From the NCBI GenBank assembly GCA_028753945.1, contig JAPNXP010000010.1:6079042-6143041 (forward strand): a DNA stretch of 64,000 nt, given 5' to 3'. The notes under the pieces were generated by a model, which was not told the origin of the DNA, made no database searches, and saw only the letters and a list, made by a program, of their open reading frames with translations. This document shows, piece by piece, positions 16,892 to 53,691 of this stretch (position 1 is the stretch's first letter; every line of letters begins with the position of its first letter). Source of the stretch: Hexactinellida sp. DTS-2022 (lineage: Eukaryota > Porifera > Hexactinellida). Both the position numbers and the translations under genes were made by a program.

Positions 16892-18469
16892 TCACATACT
16901 ATCTGTCCTTGCAATTCTATCATTAACAACACCTCTAAGCACATCAACTGCTGACATCCATTTCTCACGATGCAAATCATTCTGTGCTTGTATTTCATAA
17001 ACTCTATCTGGTGTGTTAATAAAGAAAACACCACCATCTCTATCTTGTTTTGATCTTGGTGCCTTTTCTAATGATTTGATATTAACTAGGCTTATATGGC
17101 CCTTCAATTTATTACTTGAAGGATCGTAGTAGCAAAGGTTTTCGTTTTCACAAGAGAAACATCTTGTACGGAATTTTTTCCCTGTAACACCACTGACACC
17201 ACGTTTATTAAGGGTTGACCTTATATCTCTTTCTGCTTGAAGGATTTTTGATTTGTATTCAAGATTTTCTTCTGCCTCCACATATTCTTGTTCTTTCGCT
17301 TTTTTAAAATCGTATTCTGATTTTTTGCGATCTAATGCTAGTTTTAATTGTTCGTTTTCACTTGTTAAGAAATCCTTTTCTTCAAGAAGGACATTTATTT
17401 TGTTTTCAGCCTCCATTAAGATGTCCGCTGTTCGATTTTTAACTGACATAGTAGAACTTTTGTTCTTAGAAAAAGTAGAACACACCGATACTCTATCACA
17501 GATCGTCTCAGTTTCCAATCGTTCTTTTATAGAATTCAGGCCGGATAATTTCTGTATTATTTCTCCATCAAGTGATAGTATCAATAAATGTATGCATTCC
17601 TCGTTTAAAAATGCACTCACGACATCTTGTAGCATTTGAGAGCCTCGAATAACTGGAAATTCCAATTTTTCATTTATGACAATCTGTGTTAATTCTTCTG
17701 TATTTTGCATGAACGAAACGTAAATAATTTCCATTTCGTGCCTGTTTAATTTCGTTTTAGTGGCAAGTTTTTTGGCTGTTTTGAAAAGTTCGTTTGTATC
17801 CTCTAAACTTTGATTTAATATCAAATAAATTGTGTCCGAACACAATATTTCTTGAATATTTTGCTGTTTCGAAGCACCGAGTGTTATGATGTCATCATTT
17901 GATTCCTTCAAAGCATTGAAAATAGTTTTAGAATTGCTCGGACGTTTTCTGGGTAGCGTTGCGTAATTCGGAACATCTCCACTTTGCAAAAATTCAAATT
18001 TTAAGTCTAAATATAGAACTACTTTAGTGGCATATTTCAATTTCGGTATCAAATCGATCATAAGTTTCGTTGACATTGTATTTGTATTAATATGATCACC
18101 TAAATCAATTTCAGCTTCGGCAATTGTTTTCCATTTACTAGAAAATTCAATTTCTATCGCATAACTACACAGGGTCTTTTCATAATTTGTACTTTTCTTA
18201 CTTTTAAAGATTGTAAGTTGAAGCATAACATCATCAGGTGTGTTTGCGAAATCTAAGCGCCACAAATTAGATTCTTTTTCCTTATGAAAGGTGTTAGTCC
18301 AAGATATATCTGTACCTTTGCTTGAGTAATCCACCGATTGATTTTGTCGAGACCATTTGACGTTTATCCCTTTCGGTTCAAAAGCATTTGTGAATTCGAA
18401 TTCTGCATATTCATATACCGATTTTACATTGAATAACAGGCCTTGATATTTCTTACTTCGTTTGAGCAT
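16892..18469 (-). CDS. NT-C2 / thioredoxin-like / coiled-coil / PH protein, paralogue 1
   Basis: This single exon encodes 525 residues. An NT-C2-type domain (about 10-165) has FEFTNAFEPKGINVKWSR and paired beta strands as in the EEIG1/EHBP1 N-terminus. A middle domain (about 205-310) resembles a nucleoredoxin/tryparedoxin-type thioredoxin fold (EIIYVSFMQNTEEL; HLLILSLDGEII) but lacks the CxxC active site, so it cannot be redox-active in the usual way. A charged coiled coil (about 350-410) leads to a C-terminal PH domain (about 420-512: KRGVSGVTGKKFRTRCF ... VYEIQAQNDLHREKWMSAV). The likely role is membrane/phosphoinositide and partner binding, inferred from the domains. The 51940-53655 gene is a paralogue with the same order. 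A TTATAAAA sequence lies about 70 bp before the ATG. Confidence 0.75.
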   Translation of the reverse strand: MLKRSKKYQGLLFNVKSVYEYAEFEFTNAFEPKGINVKWSRQNQSVDYSSKGTDISWTNTFHKEKESNLWRLDFANTPDDVMLQLTIFKSKKSTNYEKTLCSYAIEIEFSSKWKTIAEAEIDLGDHINTNTMSTKLMIDLIPKLKYATKVVLYLDLKFEFLQSGDVPNYATLPRKRPSNSKTIFNALKESNDDIITLGASKQQNIQEILCSDTIYLILNQSLEDTNELFKTAKKLATKTKLNRHEMEIIYVSFMQNTEELTQIVINEKLEFPVIRGSQMLQDVVSAFLNEECIHLLILSLDGEIIQKLSGLNSIKERLETETICDRVSVCSTFSKNKSSTMSVKNRTADILMEAENKINVLLEEKDFLTSENEQLKLALDRKKSEYDFKKAKEQEYVEAEENLEYKSKILQAERDIRSTLNKRGVSGVTGKKFRTRCFSCENENLCYYDPSSNKLKGHISLVNIKSLEKAPRSKQDRDGGVFFINTPDRVYEIQAQNDLHREKWMSAVDVLRGVVNDRIARTDSM

Positions 18470-18536
18470 TTTGATTATCAGAACTGGAATTATTTCTTTT
18501 AATACAAGATTGTAATTCTATCCGAATTGTGCCTAG

Positions 18537-19394: not shown

Positions 19395-20600
19395 TTAGTA
19401 TTTCTGGAAGCAATCGTTATAATCACCATGACACACACAGATAATATTATCTGTGTTGTCTAGTGTAATACCGTTTAGGAATGTGAAGTGCCCTTTGCCC
19501 AGAGAATGCTTGAATACTCCGTCAGGTGAGAAGATACGGATTTCGTTGGTTGAGTTATCAGTAATTATGAAGTTACCTCTCTTATCTATTGTGAAGAAGA
19601 AGGCTGTTGTCATCTGTTGTTCCAGTCCTCTTAATTCTATCTTCCTCAGATAAGTACCGTCTCTGTTGTAGCAGTAGATAGTATTCTGGTCGAGGGATAT
19701 AATGTGGAGAGTGTCTGAGTGTATAGCGATATCAGTGGGGGAATTGATTTCTTCAGAACCGAACTGTTTAACAAATTGGAGATCTAAGTTAAATACTTGG
19801 ATTCGTTGTACATTAAAATCACACACATATACGAATCCCGCTTCATAACACAATCCTGATATTCCTGTAAAGTATCCTGGTGCAGTACCTCTAGAGCCAG
19901 TTTTCTTAATGAACTGTCCGGCTAGACTAAACCTCAACAAACTATCTGTAGCCCTATCTGTCACAAACACTCCATCTTGTGACACACAGATACCATATGG
20001 CTCTTTCAAGTGGTCAGTTCCGAATGAGCGCAGGTATTCTCCATCTGTATTCAGTACTTGAATACGACAGTTACCTTTATCAGCAATGAAAACTTCATTC
20101 GTGTTTCTATCGACTGATATTCCTCTGGGCGCCCAAAACTCGCCATTTCCTCCACCAATATTACACTTCTTAAGAACAGGGTTTTCTCTCCCCACATACT
20201 CTGGTATCAGTTCTATCAACTCAGTCTCTTGTATCGACTTTCGAATCTTACCAGAGAGACAACGAAACTCAATTAACTCCAGATTTTCCACTGCTACCTT
20301 CAATTCTCTTTTGGCGCGTATCTTCGCATCGATTCCTTCCCTCAATGAGTCTAATTCCCCGCCTAGAATATTGCTAGTCATCACAGTCACCGCATTATCT
20401 CTCACGATTCTCAGCTGTTCCATTGCCGCATCCAACTCAACATTCCTATCGTGTCCCTCCTTCATTCTCGCTAGTCTTCCCAGGAGATTCCGTCTCTTCT
20501 CCGCTAGCAGCAAATCCAGCTCATCAAACGTCCGTTCTATTTCCAGTTTCAGAGCTTCTAGCTTAGCATCGATATTCAGTGCATCTCTATTAGCAGCCAT
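19395..20600 (-). CDS. Coiled-coil NHL-repeat protein, tandem copy A
   Basis: The protein has 401 residues. The N-terminus (about 9-120) is a charged coiled coil (KLEALKLEIERTFDELDLLL and following). The C-terminal two-thirds form about six NHL blades, with recurring patterns such as PRGISVDRNTNEVFIAD, CRIQVLNTDGEYLRSFG and IRIFSPDGVFKHSLGKG. This is the coiled-coil plus NHL half of a TRIM-NHL protein; no RING or B-box is visible in the frame or just upstream, so E3 ligase activity cannot be claimed. The NHL propeller usually binds RNA or protein. Start: MAANRDAL; copy B lacks one of the two alanines. An upstream exon carrying a RING is possible, but a family K repeat and the hAT element occupy the upstream DNA. 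Confidence 0.85.
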   Translation of the reverse strand: MAANRDALNIDAKLEALKLEIERTFDELDLLLAEKRRNLLGRLARMKEGHDRNVELDAAMEQLRIVRDNAVTVMTSNILGGELDSLREGIDAKIRAKRELKVAVENLELIEFRCLSGKIRKSIQETELIELIPEYVGRENPVLKKCNIGGGNGEFWAPRGISVDRNTNEVFIADKGNCRIQVLNTDGEYLRSFGTDHLKEPYGICVSQDGVFVTDRATDSLLRFSLAGQFIKKTGSRGTAPGYFTGISGLCYEAGFVYVCDFNVQRIQVFNLDLQFVKQFGSEEINSPTDIAIHSDTLHIISLDQNTIYCYNRDGTYLRKIELRGLEQQMTTAFFFTIDKRGNFIITDNSTNEIRIFSPDGVFKHSLGKGHFTFLNGITLDNTDNIICVCHGDYNDCFQKY

Positions 20601-20659
20601 CTCTTCTATAAACTGAATGCAATGCAGATCCTATACAGGTCTCAATATAATATTACTAA

Positions 20660-22972: not shown

Positions 22973-24175
22973 TTAGTATTTCTGGAAGCAGTCGTTATCA
23001 TCACCATTACACACACAGATAATATTATCTGTGTTGTCTAGTAGAATACCGCTTAGAAGTCTGAGGTGCCCTTTGCCTAAAGTATGCTTGAGTACTCCGT
23101 CAGGTGAGAAGATACGGATTTCGCTGGTTGATTGGTCAGTAATTATGAAGTTACCTTTCTTATCGATTGTGAAGAAGAAAGCTGATGTAATTTGTTGTTT
23201 CTGTCCTGTTAACTCTATCTTCTTCAGATAAGTACCGTCTCTGTTGTAGCAGTAGATAGTATTCTGCTCGAGGGATATAATGTGGAGAGTGTCTGAGTGT
23301 ATAGCGATGTCAGTGGGGGATTTGAGTTCTCCATAACCGAAATGTTTAACAAATTGGAGATCCAAGTTAAATACTTGGATTCGTTGCACATTCAATTCAC
23401 ACACATATACGAATCCCGCTTCATAACACATTCCTAATATTCCTGTAAAGCATCTTGGTGCAGTTCCTCTAGAGCCAGATTTCTTAATGAACTGTCCGGC
23501 TAGACTAAACCTCAACAAACAATCTGTAGCCCTATCAGTCACAAACACCCCATCTTGTGACACACAAATTCCACATGGCTCTTCCAATTGGTCAGTTCCG
23601 AATGAGCGCAAGTATTCTCCATCTGTATTCAGTACTTGAATACGACAGTTAGCTTCATCCGCAATGAAAACTTCATTCGTGTTTCTATCGACTGATATTC
23701 CTCTGGCATTATGAAACTCTCCATTTTCATTACCAATATTACACCTCTTAAGAACAGGGTTTTCTCTCCCCACATACTCTGGTATCAGTTCTATCAAATC
23801 AGTCTCTTCTATCGCTTTTCGAATCCTACCAGAGAAACAACGAAACTCAATTAACTCCAGATTTTCCACTGCTACCTTCAATTCTCTTTTGGCGCTTATT
23901 TTCGCATCAATTCCTTCCCTCAATGAGTCTAATTCCCCGCCTAAAATATTGCTAGTCATCACAGTCACCGCGTTTTCTCTCACGATTCTCAGTTGTTCCA
24001 TTGCCGCATCCAACTCAACATTCCTATCGTGTCCCTCCTTCATTCTCGCTAGTCTTCCCAGAAGATTCCGTCTCTTCTCTGCTAGCAGCAAATCCAGCTC
24101 ATCAAAGGTCCGTTCTATTTCCAGTTTCAGAGCTTCTAGCTTAGCATCGATATTCAGTGCATCTCTATTAGCCAT
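22973..24175 (-). CDS. Coiled-coil NHL-repeat protein, tandem copy B
   Basis: The protein has 400 residues from the ATG at 24175; the frame stays open upstream, but only from a GTG, and the homologous ATG of copy A sits at this point. Coiled coil and NHL blades match copy A closely, with scattered substitutions (for example GNENGEFHNARGISVD and GKGHLRLLSGILLDNT) and no frameshift or stop. Both copies therefore look functional and under constraint. No RING or B-box is seen. Confidence 0.85.
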   Translation of the reverse strand: MANRDALNIDAKLEALKLEIERTFDELDLLLAEKRRNLLGRLARMKEGHDRNVELDAAMEQLRIVRENAVTVMTSNILGGELDSLREGIDAKISAKRELKVAVENLELIEFRCFSGRIRKAIEETDLIELIPEYVGRENPVLKRCNIGNENGEFHNARGISVDRNTNEVFIADEANCRIQVLNTDGEYLRSFGTDQLEEPCGICVSQDGVFVTDRATDCLLRFSLAGQFIKKSGSRGTAPRCFTGILGMCYEAGFVYVCELNVQRIQVFNLDLQFVKHFGYGELKSPTDIAIHSDTLHIISLEQNTIYCYNRDGTYLKKIELTGQKQQITSAFFFTIDKKGNFIITDQSTSEIRIFSPDGVLKHTLGKGHLRLLSGILLDNTDNIICVCNGDDNDCFQKY

Positions 24176-24235
24176 CTCTTCTATAAACTGATACAATGCA
24201 GATCCTATACAGGTCTCAATATTACTCACGCGACC

Positions 24236-24370
24236 ATGCTTTCAAGAGACAAATATATATGCGCCTAGTTTTAGTTTGAGCTCGCTCACACGCAAATTTA
24301 ATTCTCAATTGGTTTTACATTTATGGAAGTTTCTTTTTCGATTTTCGCATGCCTATAATCAACGTTTCCT
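24236..24370. repeat. Family K repeat (copy B upstream)
   Basis: This is the counterpart of the 20660 copy (GCGCCTAGTTTTAGTTTGAG, GAGCTCGCTCACACG). A run of 12 Cs follows at about 24397. Confidence 0.65.
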
Positions 24371-50495: not shown

Positions 50496-51473
50496 TAATA
50501 TTTTACATTTTTATTGATTGTACATAGAAGTTGTTTTATTCTCATGCATGTAAATAAATAAATAAAATTAAATCAAAAATTATTGATTGATAAAAACAGC
50601 TATCTAGTAGCAGGTGAGGGGAATTTTTATCGAATGATTTTCGTGAAGAAAGTAATACTGTATCAAATTTATTACAAGTAGTTTCTAATTTTTGAAAAAA
50701 TTCAAATAATCTAAAAATGTGTCTGTCATCATATTCGGTGGAAATACAGATAACTTAATGTTGTCTCTTAAAGCGAACCACTTTTCAAGGGCACAAAGTA
50801 GGTTATAGTACATCAAGCCCGACAGAAAGCAATTTTATTGGTTCGGACAACTTGAGATCTTTGTGATCACCATGTTGGCCTCTAAAAGTTAATTGATTGT
50901 AAGTTGGAAAAAATATTGATGAGACTACACCGTCTATTGAGAATATGAAGGAAAACTTATTTACAACGAATATAACAGGAATTTTCACCCATGGATAATA
51001 GCCCATTTTAGTGGATTGTTGTGCAATCATACTAAAATAATGGACCATAGATTAAAGGCCTTTAATTAATACTTGATACACTGAAATGACAAATTTATAT
51101 TACTTTACAATCCAACACAGTTAATAGAAGACAATTCATCACCGATTCCTTGTGGCATTTACCCAGGTGTCACTCAATGTTTAATACAGGGTTGAAATGG
51201 ACGAACTTTCTAATCCATTTTATGTTCCTCTAGGTAAGTATCGATCTCATGGAATACCTTTGTGGATTGGGACTATAAACTAGTTGATAATGAACCAAGA
51301 ATATTGACCCAGGATGCGATTTCTTATATAATGATCAACGACTTTGGCCAAAAATTTGGTCACGAATTTTTTCAAGCGCTTAAAGGCTAAGTTTTTCTCC
51401 TGCTATGATGAACTTTGGGACCTCACTATTCATACTGTCACCACGGCATATCTTAGGTCACGTGGTGTCTCAC
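50496..51473. other. No gene seen
   Basis: 3' UTR and intergenic DNA; no supportable ORF. It leads into the hammerhead ribozyme locus. Confidence 0.4.
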
Positions 51474-51537
51474 TACACAAGGGTTTCGGCCATCCATAGG
51501 CCTCATCAGGAGGGCGGTTTAGCCCTCGACCCGTGTA
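51474..51537 (-). ncRNA. Hammerhead self-cleaving ribozyme (stem-III-open, type III layout)
   Basis: Reading the minus strand from 51537: the 5' strand of stem III (TACAC, GGG), then the cleavage triplet GTC (cleavage expected after C51528). Stem I is a perfect 6-bp hairpin, GAGGGC/GCCCTC, with loop TAAACC (51527-51510). The invariant CTGATGA core is at 51509-51503. Stem II is GGCC/GGCC with loop TATGGAT (51502-51488). GAAA follows at 51487-51484, then the 3' strand CCC, a TT bulge and GTGTA (51483-51474). The two stem III strands pair as GGG/CCC and TACAC/GTGTA, plus the A-U next to the core. All conserved core bases are present. Hammerheads in animals usually ride on Penelope-like or retrozyme-type elements; no partner ORF is visible nearby. 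Confidence 0.85.
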
Positions 51538-51790
51538 TCCACTCACTGCTATCTTTGTTCCCGATGCTTTGACCTTACGTCATTTTCATTCGGGAATGTC
51601 GCAATCGCAAAAATTTGAAAGGAATTTTTCAAGGAGCGCAAAAACTAGATTAGTAATTTAGATGCGAGTGAGTGGGATCAAACAATATCTAGGCGCGCAG
51701 AAAAAATTTCCTGGCTAAAAAATTTTGCAGAGGTGAATTTTGAGTGTGTAAAAATTACAATAGAAAGAGGTGTTGGCCGATATATCATTA
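51538..51790. repeat. Degenerate repeat patch: family K remnant and half of family H
   Basis: A GC-richer stretch flanks the ribozyme (to about 51600), then a worn family K block (GCGAGTGAGTGGG, AGGCGCGCAGAAAAAAT) and a family H right half (GAGGTGTTGGCCGATATAT). Confidence 0.5.
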
Positions 51791-51939: not shown

Positions 51940-53655
51940 TTAATCCGATTCATTTATAGTCTCGTCTATAACAGATTTAGTCCTTGAGTTTTCCACTAAA
52001 AACTCAACAGCAGAAATCCATGTGTGCATGTGGTTAGTGTCACGAGCTTGAATTTCAAAAATCCTTCCAGGAACCGTAATTGAAAATGAAGCGGAGTTTT
52101 TATCCTGATGGTCTTTTGGAACTTTCAGGATGGAAATTATTTCCGGTACACTAATAAACCCTTTCGTCTCGTTTGTCTTTGGGTCGATATAAAGAATTTT
52201 ATTGTCTTCGAATTGGAAAAATCTTGCGCGCCATAAATGTCCAGTCATCCCTCTAACACCACGTTTCATGAGGGTACCCCTTATATCCCTTTCGGCCTCT
52301 AACGATTTTGTTGCCCTTGTAAGTTTCTTTTCCATCTTAACTTGCTGGCTTATGAGGGAAGTTTGTCTGACTAACTTATCGTTTAACTTTGTAACTTCAT
52401 CCTCAAGTTGTGTGTTTGAATTTGTTAAATTATATTTGTCCGTTTCAAGACTCACAATCACTCCTTCCTTCTCCTTTATGATTTCTGCAGTTATGTCTTT
52501 TGCTTTTGATGGAATAGATACTTCATTTGTGGTCACAATTGTAGAAAAAGAATCAATGGACAGTGAGCTATAGGTCCTATTTGTGAGAGACAACCATTTT
52601 TCTGTCATTTTAAAACTATCAGGTGACTCTAAACAATCAATGATTGACGCATCATTGAATTGGTTGACTATTCGTGAATCAGATAGCACTAACATATGTG
52701 GCGCCTTGGTGATCTCATAATGTTGTGTAATGGCACTGGATAATTCTGATTGTGGTTTAATAGCTGGACATTTTAAGTTGCAATTCTGGATTGTTTCAAT
52801 GAGCGCTTGTTCATCTTTATCCATCGAAACGTAAAATACCTCGACTGCAGTGAAAAAATGCATTTTAATTTGGTTATAAAACGTGTTTAAAGCTTTGGTG
52901 ATTAACTGAGATTTCTCGATCCATTTTCCATCGAAAACTAATATAATTAGTTTGCAGTTTGGTAAGAATTTGAAAATGTCGACGCTACTCGCACCCGGAC
53001 TGATTACGTCATTATGGTAATGCTGTATGTGGTGAGCCAATGAAAATTGATTCTCGTCGATGACAAGACCTATTGTGGACGCATTATCAAAATCAGAATT
53101 CACATTGGACGAGTAGCCAATAGATTCGCTCTCTTTTGAGAAGGTACTGATCATGTCGGCATCTTTTGAATTCCCAGTTTTTACAAACTCAAATGTTATG
53201 CGAACATTTAGTGTAACTGACAAAACGAATTTCTGTTTCGGTTTCATTTCAATTGCGAGGTATTGCGTACTTCCATTTGGATCTGCATACAGTGAAAAAT
53301 CTATATCAGCATTCGCGATCGTTCTTGCTCGACCAAATTCGTTGACGGATTCGATAGTATAACGGTACACTTTCGTTTCAAAATTTACACCTTTTTTGCC
53401 CTTATGTAGGGTTATACGCATATCAGGGTTACAATTACTCTTGTAACTACAGCGGCCTGCTATGTACCCATTGTCACCCTCTCCAGTTTTGTTCCAAATG
53501 GGGGCTTCGCCGAGTTTTAGCGAATCAGTGAATCTTTTATGTCGTGACCACTTAACGTTTATCGTTTCAGGAGAATACGAATTTTGGAATTCAAAATCGA
53601 TTGATTTGTAACAGGAACTAACATTGAATATACTGCTCTTTTTCTTACTAAACAT
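51940..53655 (-). CDS. NT-C2 / thioredoxin-like / coiled-coil / PH protein, paralogue 2
   Basis: This single exon encodes 571 residues with the same layout as 16892-18469. The NT-C2-like domain is at about 8-165 (FEFQNSYSPETINVKWSRHK). The thioredoxin-like domain (about 228-345) is clearer here: CKLIILVFDGKWIEKS occupies the position of the WCPPC motif, then VEVFYVSMDKDEQALIETIQ and APHMLVLSDSRIVN, where the Pro matches the cis-Pro site. The CxxC is absent. Coiled coil covers about 395-450. The PH domain (about 455-560) has KRGVRGMTGHLWRARFFQFE and FEIQARDTNHMHTWISAVEF. Redox catalysis is unlikely; a membrane-linked scaffold is inferred. A TATA-like TATTTATATA lies about 40 bp before the ATG. 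Confidence 0.78.
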   Translation of the reverse strand: MFSKKKSSIFNVSSCYKSIDFEFQNSYSPETINVKWSRHKRFTDSLKLGEAPIWNKTGEGDNGYIAGRCSYKSNCNPDMRITLHKGKKGVNFETKVYRYTIESVNEFGRARTIANADIDFSLYADPNGSTQYLAIEMKPKQKFVLSVTLNVRITFEFVKTGNSKDADMISTFSKESESIGYSSNVNSDFDNASTIGLVIDENQFSLAHHIQHYHNDVISPGASSVDIFKFLPNCKLIILVFDGKWIEKSQLITKALNTFYNQIKMHFFTAVEVFYVSMDKDEQALIETIQNCNLKCPAIKPQSELSSAITQHYEITKAPHMLVLSDSRIVNQFNDASIIDCLESPDSFKMTEKWLSLTNRTYSSLSIDSFSTIVTTNEVSIPSKAKDITAEIIKEKEGVIVSLETDKYNLTNSNTQLEDEVTKLNDKLVRQTSLISQQVKMEKKLTRATKSLEAERDIRGTLMKRGVRGMTGHLWRARFFQFEDNKILYIDPKTNETKGFISVPEIISILKVPKDHQDKNSASFSITVPGRIFEIQARDTNHMHTWISAVEFLVENSRTKSVIDETINESD

Positions 53656-53691
53656 TTTGGATTAATTGTGTAGAATAGTATACCTATCGTA

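Follow-up and report, generated by a model that had tools for sequence, protein, structure and literature searches.

Sequence evidence for plant-type LTR retrozymes with predicted type III hammerhead ribozymes in a glass sponge genome

The hammerhead locus and its neighbours

The window, as we call the whole stretch of 64,000 nucleotides of glass sponge DNA that was analysed, carries a hammerhead motif on its minus strand, beyond the 3' end of a gene with NT-C2, thioredoxin-like and PH domains. The features of this locus are as follows.

51401 to 51564, minus strand: very probable remnant of a family-A retrozyme LTR with its ribozyme (repeat matches spanning 51405-51564; the 5' end is unrecognisable)
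51474 to 51539, minus strand: type III hammerhead ribozyme with an extended stem III (Rfam match 51478-51535; fold; model built from the genome's own hammerheads)
51527 to 51528, minus strand: predicted cleavage site, between C51528 and G51527, after the GUC triplet 51530-51528 (structure and NUH rule)
51510 to 51527, minus strand: stem I, GAGGGC/GCCCTC, 6 bp, loop TAAACC
51503 to 51509, minus strand: core CUGAUGA
51488 to 51502, minus strand: stem II, GGCC/GGCC, 4 bp, 7-nt loop
51484 to 51487, minus strand: core GAAA, the last A paired to U51529
51940 to 53661, minus strand: neighbouring gene, outside the element, encoding NT-C2, thioredoxin-like and PH domains and ending in the stop codon 51942-51940

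The neighbouring gene has 12 homologues in its search, the only named one being that of the hexactinellid sponge Oopsacas minuta (67%). Joined EF1A exons of the genome also point to a glass sponge: among the 120 matches listed (7998 candidates scored), O. minuta gives the best identity at full coverage (82%, 800 bits). Longer composite proteins rank above it; below it come proteins of 504 and 488 aa (793 and 761 bits, 70% and 73%) and ordinary EF1As, which reach at most 749 bits. A paralogue lies on the same strand at 16892-18517; the thioredoxin-like domain was found only in the second copy, at 51940-53661 (Pfam, E up to 0.001). The window also encodes two tandem proteins that are closely similar by eye (19395-20630 and 22973-24241), with NHL repeats in the first, the one scanned, and an SprT-like protein that matches six ENA proteins at 50-86% and then metazoan proteins, many of them germ cell nuclear acidic protein.

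Read on the minus strand, the motif displays the core CUGAUGA, GAAA and an NUH site, with stems I and II closed and the ends in stem III, which is the type III arrangement. In stem I GAGGGC (51527-51522) pairs with GCCCTC (51515-51510), and in stem II GGCC (51502-51499) with GGCC (51491-51488). The inner part of stem III consists of U51529-A51484 followed by GGG (51532-51530) against CCC (51483-51481), and the outer part of a C51533.U51480 mismatch followed by five pairs (51534-51538 with 51479-51475), one of them U-G. This three-way junction is the minimum free energy fold (-27.6 kcal/mol, z -3.36), equalled by none of 200 shuffles. Hammerhead cleavage follows the NUH rule, and the site predicted here is the one that an earlier note on this DNA had placed after C51528. 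The same note had described a complete hammerhead of type III topology with a 6-bp stem I; all core bases and the three stems are confirmed on the minus strand, as are the topology and stem I, by direct reading and by the match to the Rfam model RF00008.

The Rfam scan that the note had proposed gave a divided answer. At the gathering score no Rfam match was found anywhere in the 64-kb window, whereas an E-value search of 701 bases returned an RF00008 match covering the full model (40.6 bits, E 2.4e-7), under the gathering score of 48.5 bits, which is an annotation cut-off and not a structural criterion. A model made from 22 hammerheads of other families also finds the window copy (35.7 bits, E 6.9e-9, the E-value being rough), as its sole match in the window at E up to 0.01. 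Because the RF00008 E-value and the other-family model both single it out, we place the window hammerhead beyond chance, albeit under the curated cut-off. By sequence and fold the motif is thus a type III hammerhead, for which self-cleavage is predicted.

Dispersed copies and conserved pairings

A search of the genome (112.4 Mb in 18 contigs) with a 201-bp query from the window returned at least 41 matches, itself included, so that the dispersed copies the earlier note had suggested looking for do exist. The other 40 places match the window copy at the LTR level, with 74-89% identity over 54-147 bp, and many matches reach well past the ribozyme (query 6-133, 10-150 and 60-165); they are therefore repeat copies, not merely common motifs. 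The statement that the hammerhead lies alone holds within the window, where it is the only one, but not for the genome. A lone functional ribozyme was dropped as the main reading because this search revealed a dispersed family.

Three families, A, B and C, were distinguished, the window copy falling in family A. As read from the copies, family A has starts resembling TGTCATGTAGC and ends resembling GCTTCATAACA or CATGACA. In family C stem III is, for instance, GUGG/CCAC, with TGTTATAGACAT and CATAACA among the ends; in families B and C stem I is mostly 5 bp with a 3-nt loop. Searched as exact 16-mers, the core region is present at 48 places for family A and at 185 for the B/C type, the reversed-pattern controls giving 0 each. 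In a genome scan with RF00008, which yielded 12,319 first-look candidates, 64 of the 68 scored places exceed the cut-off. At the gathering score only three hammerheads pass in the 14 loci scanned, all of C type, and no family-A copy does. The B/C cores are unevenly spread, with 65 of the 185 on contig C1, which holds 17.6 of the 112.4 Mb, above its share. At L077 (~395-419; C2:4960694 and 4960715) two cores with different stem II lie on opposite strands, their starts 21 bp apart.

The pairings of the stems are conserved, with covariation, among these relatives. The alignment (A2) and its model (R1) were built from 22 of the 58 distinct motifs, all outside family A, and on the window plus 39 loci the model gives 62 matches at E up to 0.01. 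Among the 53 distinct rows, 95.9% of cells are paired, against 84.8% in shuffles and no more than 63.5% when the structure is slid. Both sides have changed in seven of 15 pairs, which 9 of 500 shuffles also achieve. The covariation score is 0.335; shuffles give 0.147, not one of the 500 equalling the observed value, and slid structures do not exceed 0.102. All these figures lean towards the structure because the alignment was fitted to the model. Double changes between families are visible directly, for example from U-A to G-C in stem II.

The genome also holds a multi-copy element of ~6 kb, found at L040 and L041, with no fewer than 12 other loci matching over at least 1 kb. It has an ORF of 1260 aa, with an OTU cysteine-protease domain near the end of the ORF, and a 143-bp inverted repeated stretch. 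A family-A LTR with its hammerhead sits downstream of the ORF; the ribozyme is thus copied along with another mobile element.

LTR elements, the window remnant and rival readings

Full elements are found in two of the families, each with two direct LTRs and a type III hammerhead in each. The family-A element L030 has 302-bp LTRs (300/302 identical), an internal region of 73 bp and the target site duplication (TSD) CTAT; in the B-type element L060 the LTRs measure 222 and 223 bp and agree at 220 of 223 aligned columns, the internal region is 149 bp long and the TSD is ACATG. The GC contents of the two elements are 0.59 and 0.52. The internal region of L030 starts with TTTGGTGCATTGGCCG and has a purine-rich tract at its end; the polypurine tracts (PPT) before the 3' LTR, located by eye, read GTAGGGAAGAGTGA in L030 and GGTGAGAGGAG in L060. 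A tRNA-Gly(GCC) gene of the genome has the 3' end GGTTCGATTCCCGGCCAATGCA, and its CCA-tailed form would pair with TGGTGCATTGGCCGGGAA. L030 matches this complement for 14 bases, followed by a mismatch, and L032 for all 18. The 14-base PBS word has nine exact places in the genome, belonging to families A and B; in eight a core lies 74-108 nt upstream on the same strand, and the ninth is a rearranged LTR of the same kind as the others. In L060, the PBS TTGGCGACGAAGGTGGGAT is complementary to the 3' end of tRNA-Ser(GCT) (ATCCCACCTTCGTCG plus CCA), the gene for which lies in L081. No PBS was identified in family C.

Direct pairs of cores less than 700 bp apart number at least eight among the 48 family-A places and the 100 listed of the 185 B/C places, with spacings of 343-527 nt. 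Between cleavage sites the predicted unit RNA measures 375 nt for L030 and 372 nt for L060; each of the two folds better than its 100 shuffles (z -3.18 and -5.23, respectively).

The TSD is exact in 17 of 21 scored copies, 15 of 4 bp and two of 5 bp (the latter being both B copies scored), and four have none. The list behind these counts comprises 23 copies, two of them unscorable, with ends picked by eye on the family end boxes, which is a weakness. It omits copies without two recognisable outer ends or with an LTR adjoining the PBS or PPT, among others L001, L003, L007, L008, L009, L014, L023, L033, L039, L044, L046, L048, L050, L052, L065, L068, L070, L072-L074 and L077, and further copies of the L004 insertion inside the OTU element. 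When 24 family-A copies, among them the one in the window, were anchored automatically, eight showed an exact 4-bp TSD; without anchoring, the search yielded chance solutions. The palindromic arrays L032 (730 bp long) and L063 (2184 bp, with five cores) have equal 4-bp outer flanks, CAGG and CTAT, as would be expected if one multimeric cDNA had entered per array. Tail-to-tail and direct multi-LTR arrays were seen at L063 (C1:7627500-7630100), L032, L039, L065 and L070.

In the window, repeat matches jointly cover query 6-165, that is 51405-51564, and the 3' end of the remnant, judged by eye against the family ends (...CA), was put at 51401. Direct reading and automatic anchoring revealed no recognisable 5' end, partner LTR, PBS or TSD at this locus; with no second LTR, PBS or TSD there, we take the copy as no more than a remnant, in keeping with a decayed solo LTR. 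We are highly confident that the ribozyme in the window belongs to such a decayed solo LTR of ~160 bp (or to an LTR fragment) from an LTR-type retrozyme, a copy that is probably immobile now. Its triplet is GUC, whereas 26 of the 28 parsed family-A copies have GUA and one of the 28 has no triplet; GUA is cleavable, usually more slowly than GUC. The suggestion in the earlier note of a retrozyme relic is supported, the class being that of plant-type LTR elements and not of animal non-LTR ones.

Other readings of the motif deserve consideration. The ribozyme could have been domesticated for 3'-end processing or regulation of the NT-C2/PH gene, cutting its transcript past the stop codon, much as the earlier note had proposed for a read-through transcript. 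It does lie on the strand of that gene, as the note had stated, at a distance of ~400 bp and not the ~300 bp given there, since the stop codon is at 51942-51940 and the ribozyme starts at 51539. Its core is intact, with GUC where most of its family has GUA, and domesticated hammerheads have been reported in animal transcripts, according to the cited part of PMC6155905. Yet position was the sole basis for tying the ribozyme to the gene; the window copy belongs to a dispersed repeat family and nothing links it to this gene, which makes domestication very unlikely. Had the hammerhead been spread by a DNA transposon (a MITE-like one, or the OTU-encoding element of ~6 kb) in place of reverse transcription, this would account for the short inverted repeats at the family-A LTR ends (such as TGTCATG..CATGACA) and for the family-A LTR located within the multi-copy OTU element. 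That LTR, however, is flanked by its own TSD, ACAG, so that the OTU element merely carries an inserted LTR, and the PBS, PPT, direct LTR pairs and end boxes common with an RT element are features of LTR retroelements. We therefore dropped transposon spread, which we hold to be extremely unlikely.

An origin from an animal-type (type I, non-LTR) retrozyme or a Penelope-like element, the latter also raised in the earlier note, has in its favour that hammerheads in animals are usually carried by such elements, as given in the cited portions of PMC7761336. The window hammerhead, though, opens at stem III and not at stem I, as a type III and not a minimal type I ribozyme in a pseudo-LTR, and its relatives have LTRs, PBS, PPT and TSDs of 4-5 bp; the type I ribozymes, tandem arrangement and lack of LTR and PBS by which animal non-LTR retrozymes are recognised are not what is found here. 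A search with the type I model RF00163 returned no match, a weak negative since its own controls were also silent. Such an origin is extremely unlikely. Our best explanation of the window motif, which we favour with high confidence, is an LTR-type retrozyme, a very small retroelement that codes for no protein and has a type III hammerhead in both LTRs.

Proposed mobilisation, known systems and meaning

How would such elements move? A candidate helper is L087, an LTR retrotransposon with 169-bp LTRs that are 100% identical. Separate open pieces encode, in order, RVT_1, RT_RNaseH_2/RT_RNaseH and Integrase_H2C2/rve, an order that we take to be the usual one for Ty3/gypsy-like elements. Its LTR begins TGTAGTA, as does that of L060, and 30 bp comprising the LTR end and PBS, ACGTTATTACATTGGCGACGAAGGTGGGAT, are identical in the two, 18 of these 30 bases being fixed by the common tRNA, so that the independent likeness amounts to 12 bases there and seven at the LTR start. 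By eye, the LTR of L087 holds no hammerhead core, and its flanks show no exact TSD. On these sequence features L087 may be regarded as a candidate helper whose end boxes are common to one family only, that of L060. A similar PBS box together with an RVT_1 match occurs at L086, with no LTR pair in 8.3 kb. For the tRNA-Gly families, the window's included, no helper was found; L084 and L085 were rejected as such, as neither has an LTR pair in ~8 kb or a hammerhead core. Across the genome, 150 integrase matches were scored from 706 candidates. One integrase, at C4:4427267 (L078), lies near a family-B LTR, and the LTR there (L076) has its own TSD.

The observed basis for a life cycle comprises the sequence, structure and covariation of the ribozyme, the LTRs, the match of PBS to tRNA genes, the PPT, the TSDs and, for one family, a helper with the same end boxes. 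In the cycle that we propose, an element would be transcribed through both LTRs, and its two hammerheads would excise by self-cleavage a unit-length RNA (343-527 nt between cores in eight direct pairs), which a host RNA ligase would circularise. The RT of an LTR retrotransposon, acting in trans, would then copy the circle, with tRNA-Gly(GCC) or tRNA-Ser(GCT) at the PBS as primer, into solo-LTR, full-length or multimeric cDNA, and the retrotransposon integrase would insert these products, giving the target duplication of 4-5 bp.

Retrozymes have been divided along host lines. As set out in the cited portions of PMC7761336 and PMC7229834, those of plants are LTR elements with type III hammerheads and those of metazoans are type I, without LTR, PBS or PPT; the cited part of a 2024 review repeats this division (PMC11722881). 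Plant retrozymes and Ty3-gypsy elements have end boxes in common, with a tRNA-Met PBS (Cervera et al. 2016, cited part of PMC4918200). The sponge elements resemble plant LTR retrozymes, as these are portrayed in the same portions of PMC4918200 and PMC7761336, in the type III hammerhead of each LTR, an LTR length of some hundreds of bp, 4-bp TSDs, a tRNA PBS, a PPT, the non-coding nature, common solo LTRs and Ty3-gypsy end boxes. They differ in their glass sponge host, in a PBS for tRNA-Gly(GCC) or tRNA-Ser(GCT) where plants have tRNA-Met, and in the spacing of cores, 343-527 nt in eight pairs against the ~600-1000 given for plants. Further sponge features are the internal regions of 73 and 149 bp, the 5-bp TSDs of B copies, the B/C stem I of mostly 5 bp with a 3-nt loop, and the palindromic multi-LTR arrays. 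With animal non-LTR retrozymes, as characterised in the cited part of PMC7229834 (Cervera and de la Pena 2020), they share an animal host and a small, non-coding repeat unit bounded by hammerheads; the non-LTR ones are, however, type I, tandem, low in GC and without LTR, PBS or PPT, whereas the sponge elements have type III hammerheads, LTR, PBS and PPT, and GC of 0.59 and 0.52. Type III topology alone is not new in animals, since atypical type III hammerheads are known from HDV-like agents and dipteran genomes; unlike in the sponge ones, helices I and II are much longer in these and a loop-loop pseudoknot is present, and no setting within LTR elements is mentioned for them (cited part of PMC7936874). 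TRIM and SMART elements are likewise small, non-coding, helper-dependent LTR elements, retrozymes being set apart from them by the ribozyme in the LTR (cited part of PMC4918200). Among the open-licence papers listed, titles and the beginnings of abstracts showed no sponge hammerhead, and neither "ribozyme" nor "LTR" occurs in the main text of the genome paper on Aphrocallistes vastus (PMC10282587).

Judged from sequence, then, LTR retrozymes, in print from plants, are present in many copies in a glass sponge genome. We further consider it likely that several families of plant-type LTR retrozymes have recently been active in glass sponges; they would make viroid-sized circular RNAs with type III hammerheads and be mobilised by Ty3/gypsy-like elements, with tRNA-Ser and tRNA-Gly as primers. 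If this is true, the split of retrozymes between plants and animals (type III with LTR versus type I without) would not be a kingdom boundary, and LTR retrozymes would have arisen more than once, or be older or more mobile than thought. The plant arrangement would then occur in an early-branching animal, where it comes with other tRNA primers, a candidate helper and a unit of very small size. Whether retrozymes and viroid-like circles originated by convergence, transfer or deep ancestry would thereby become testable, and the sponge would offer an animal system in which to seek ribozyme-made circular RNAs.
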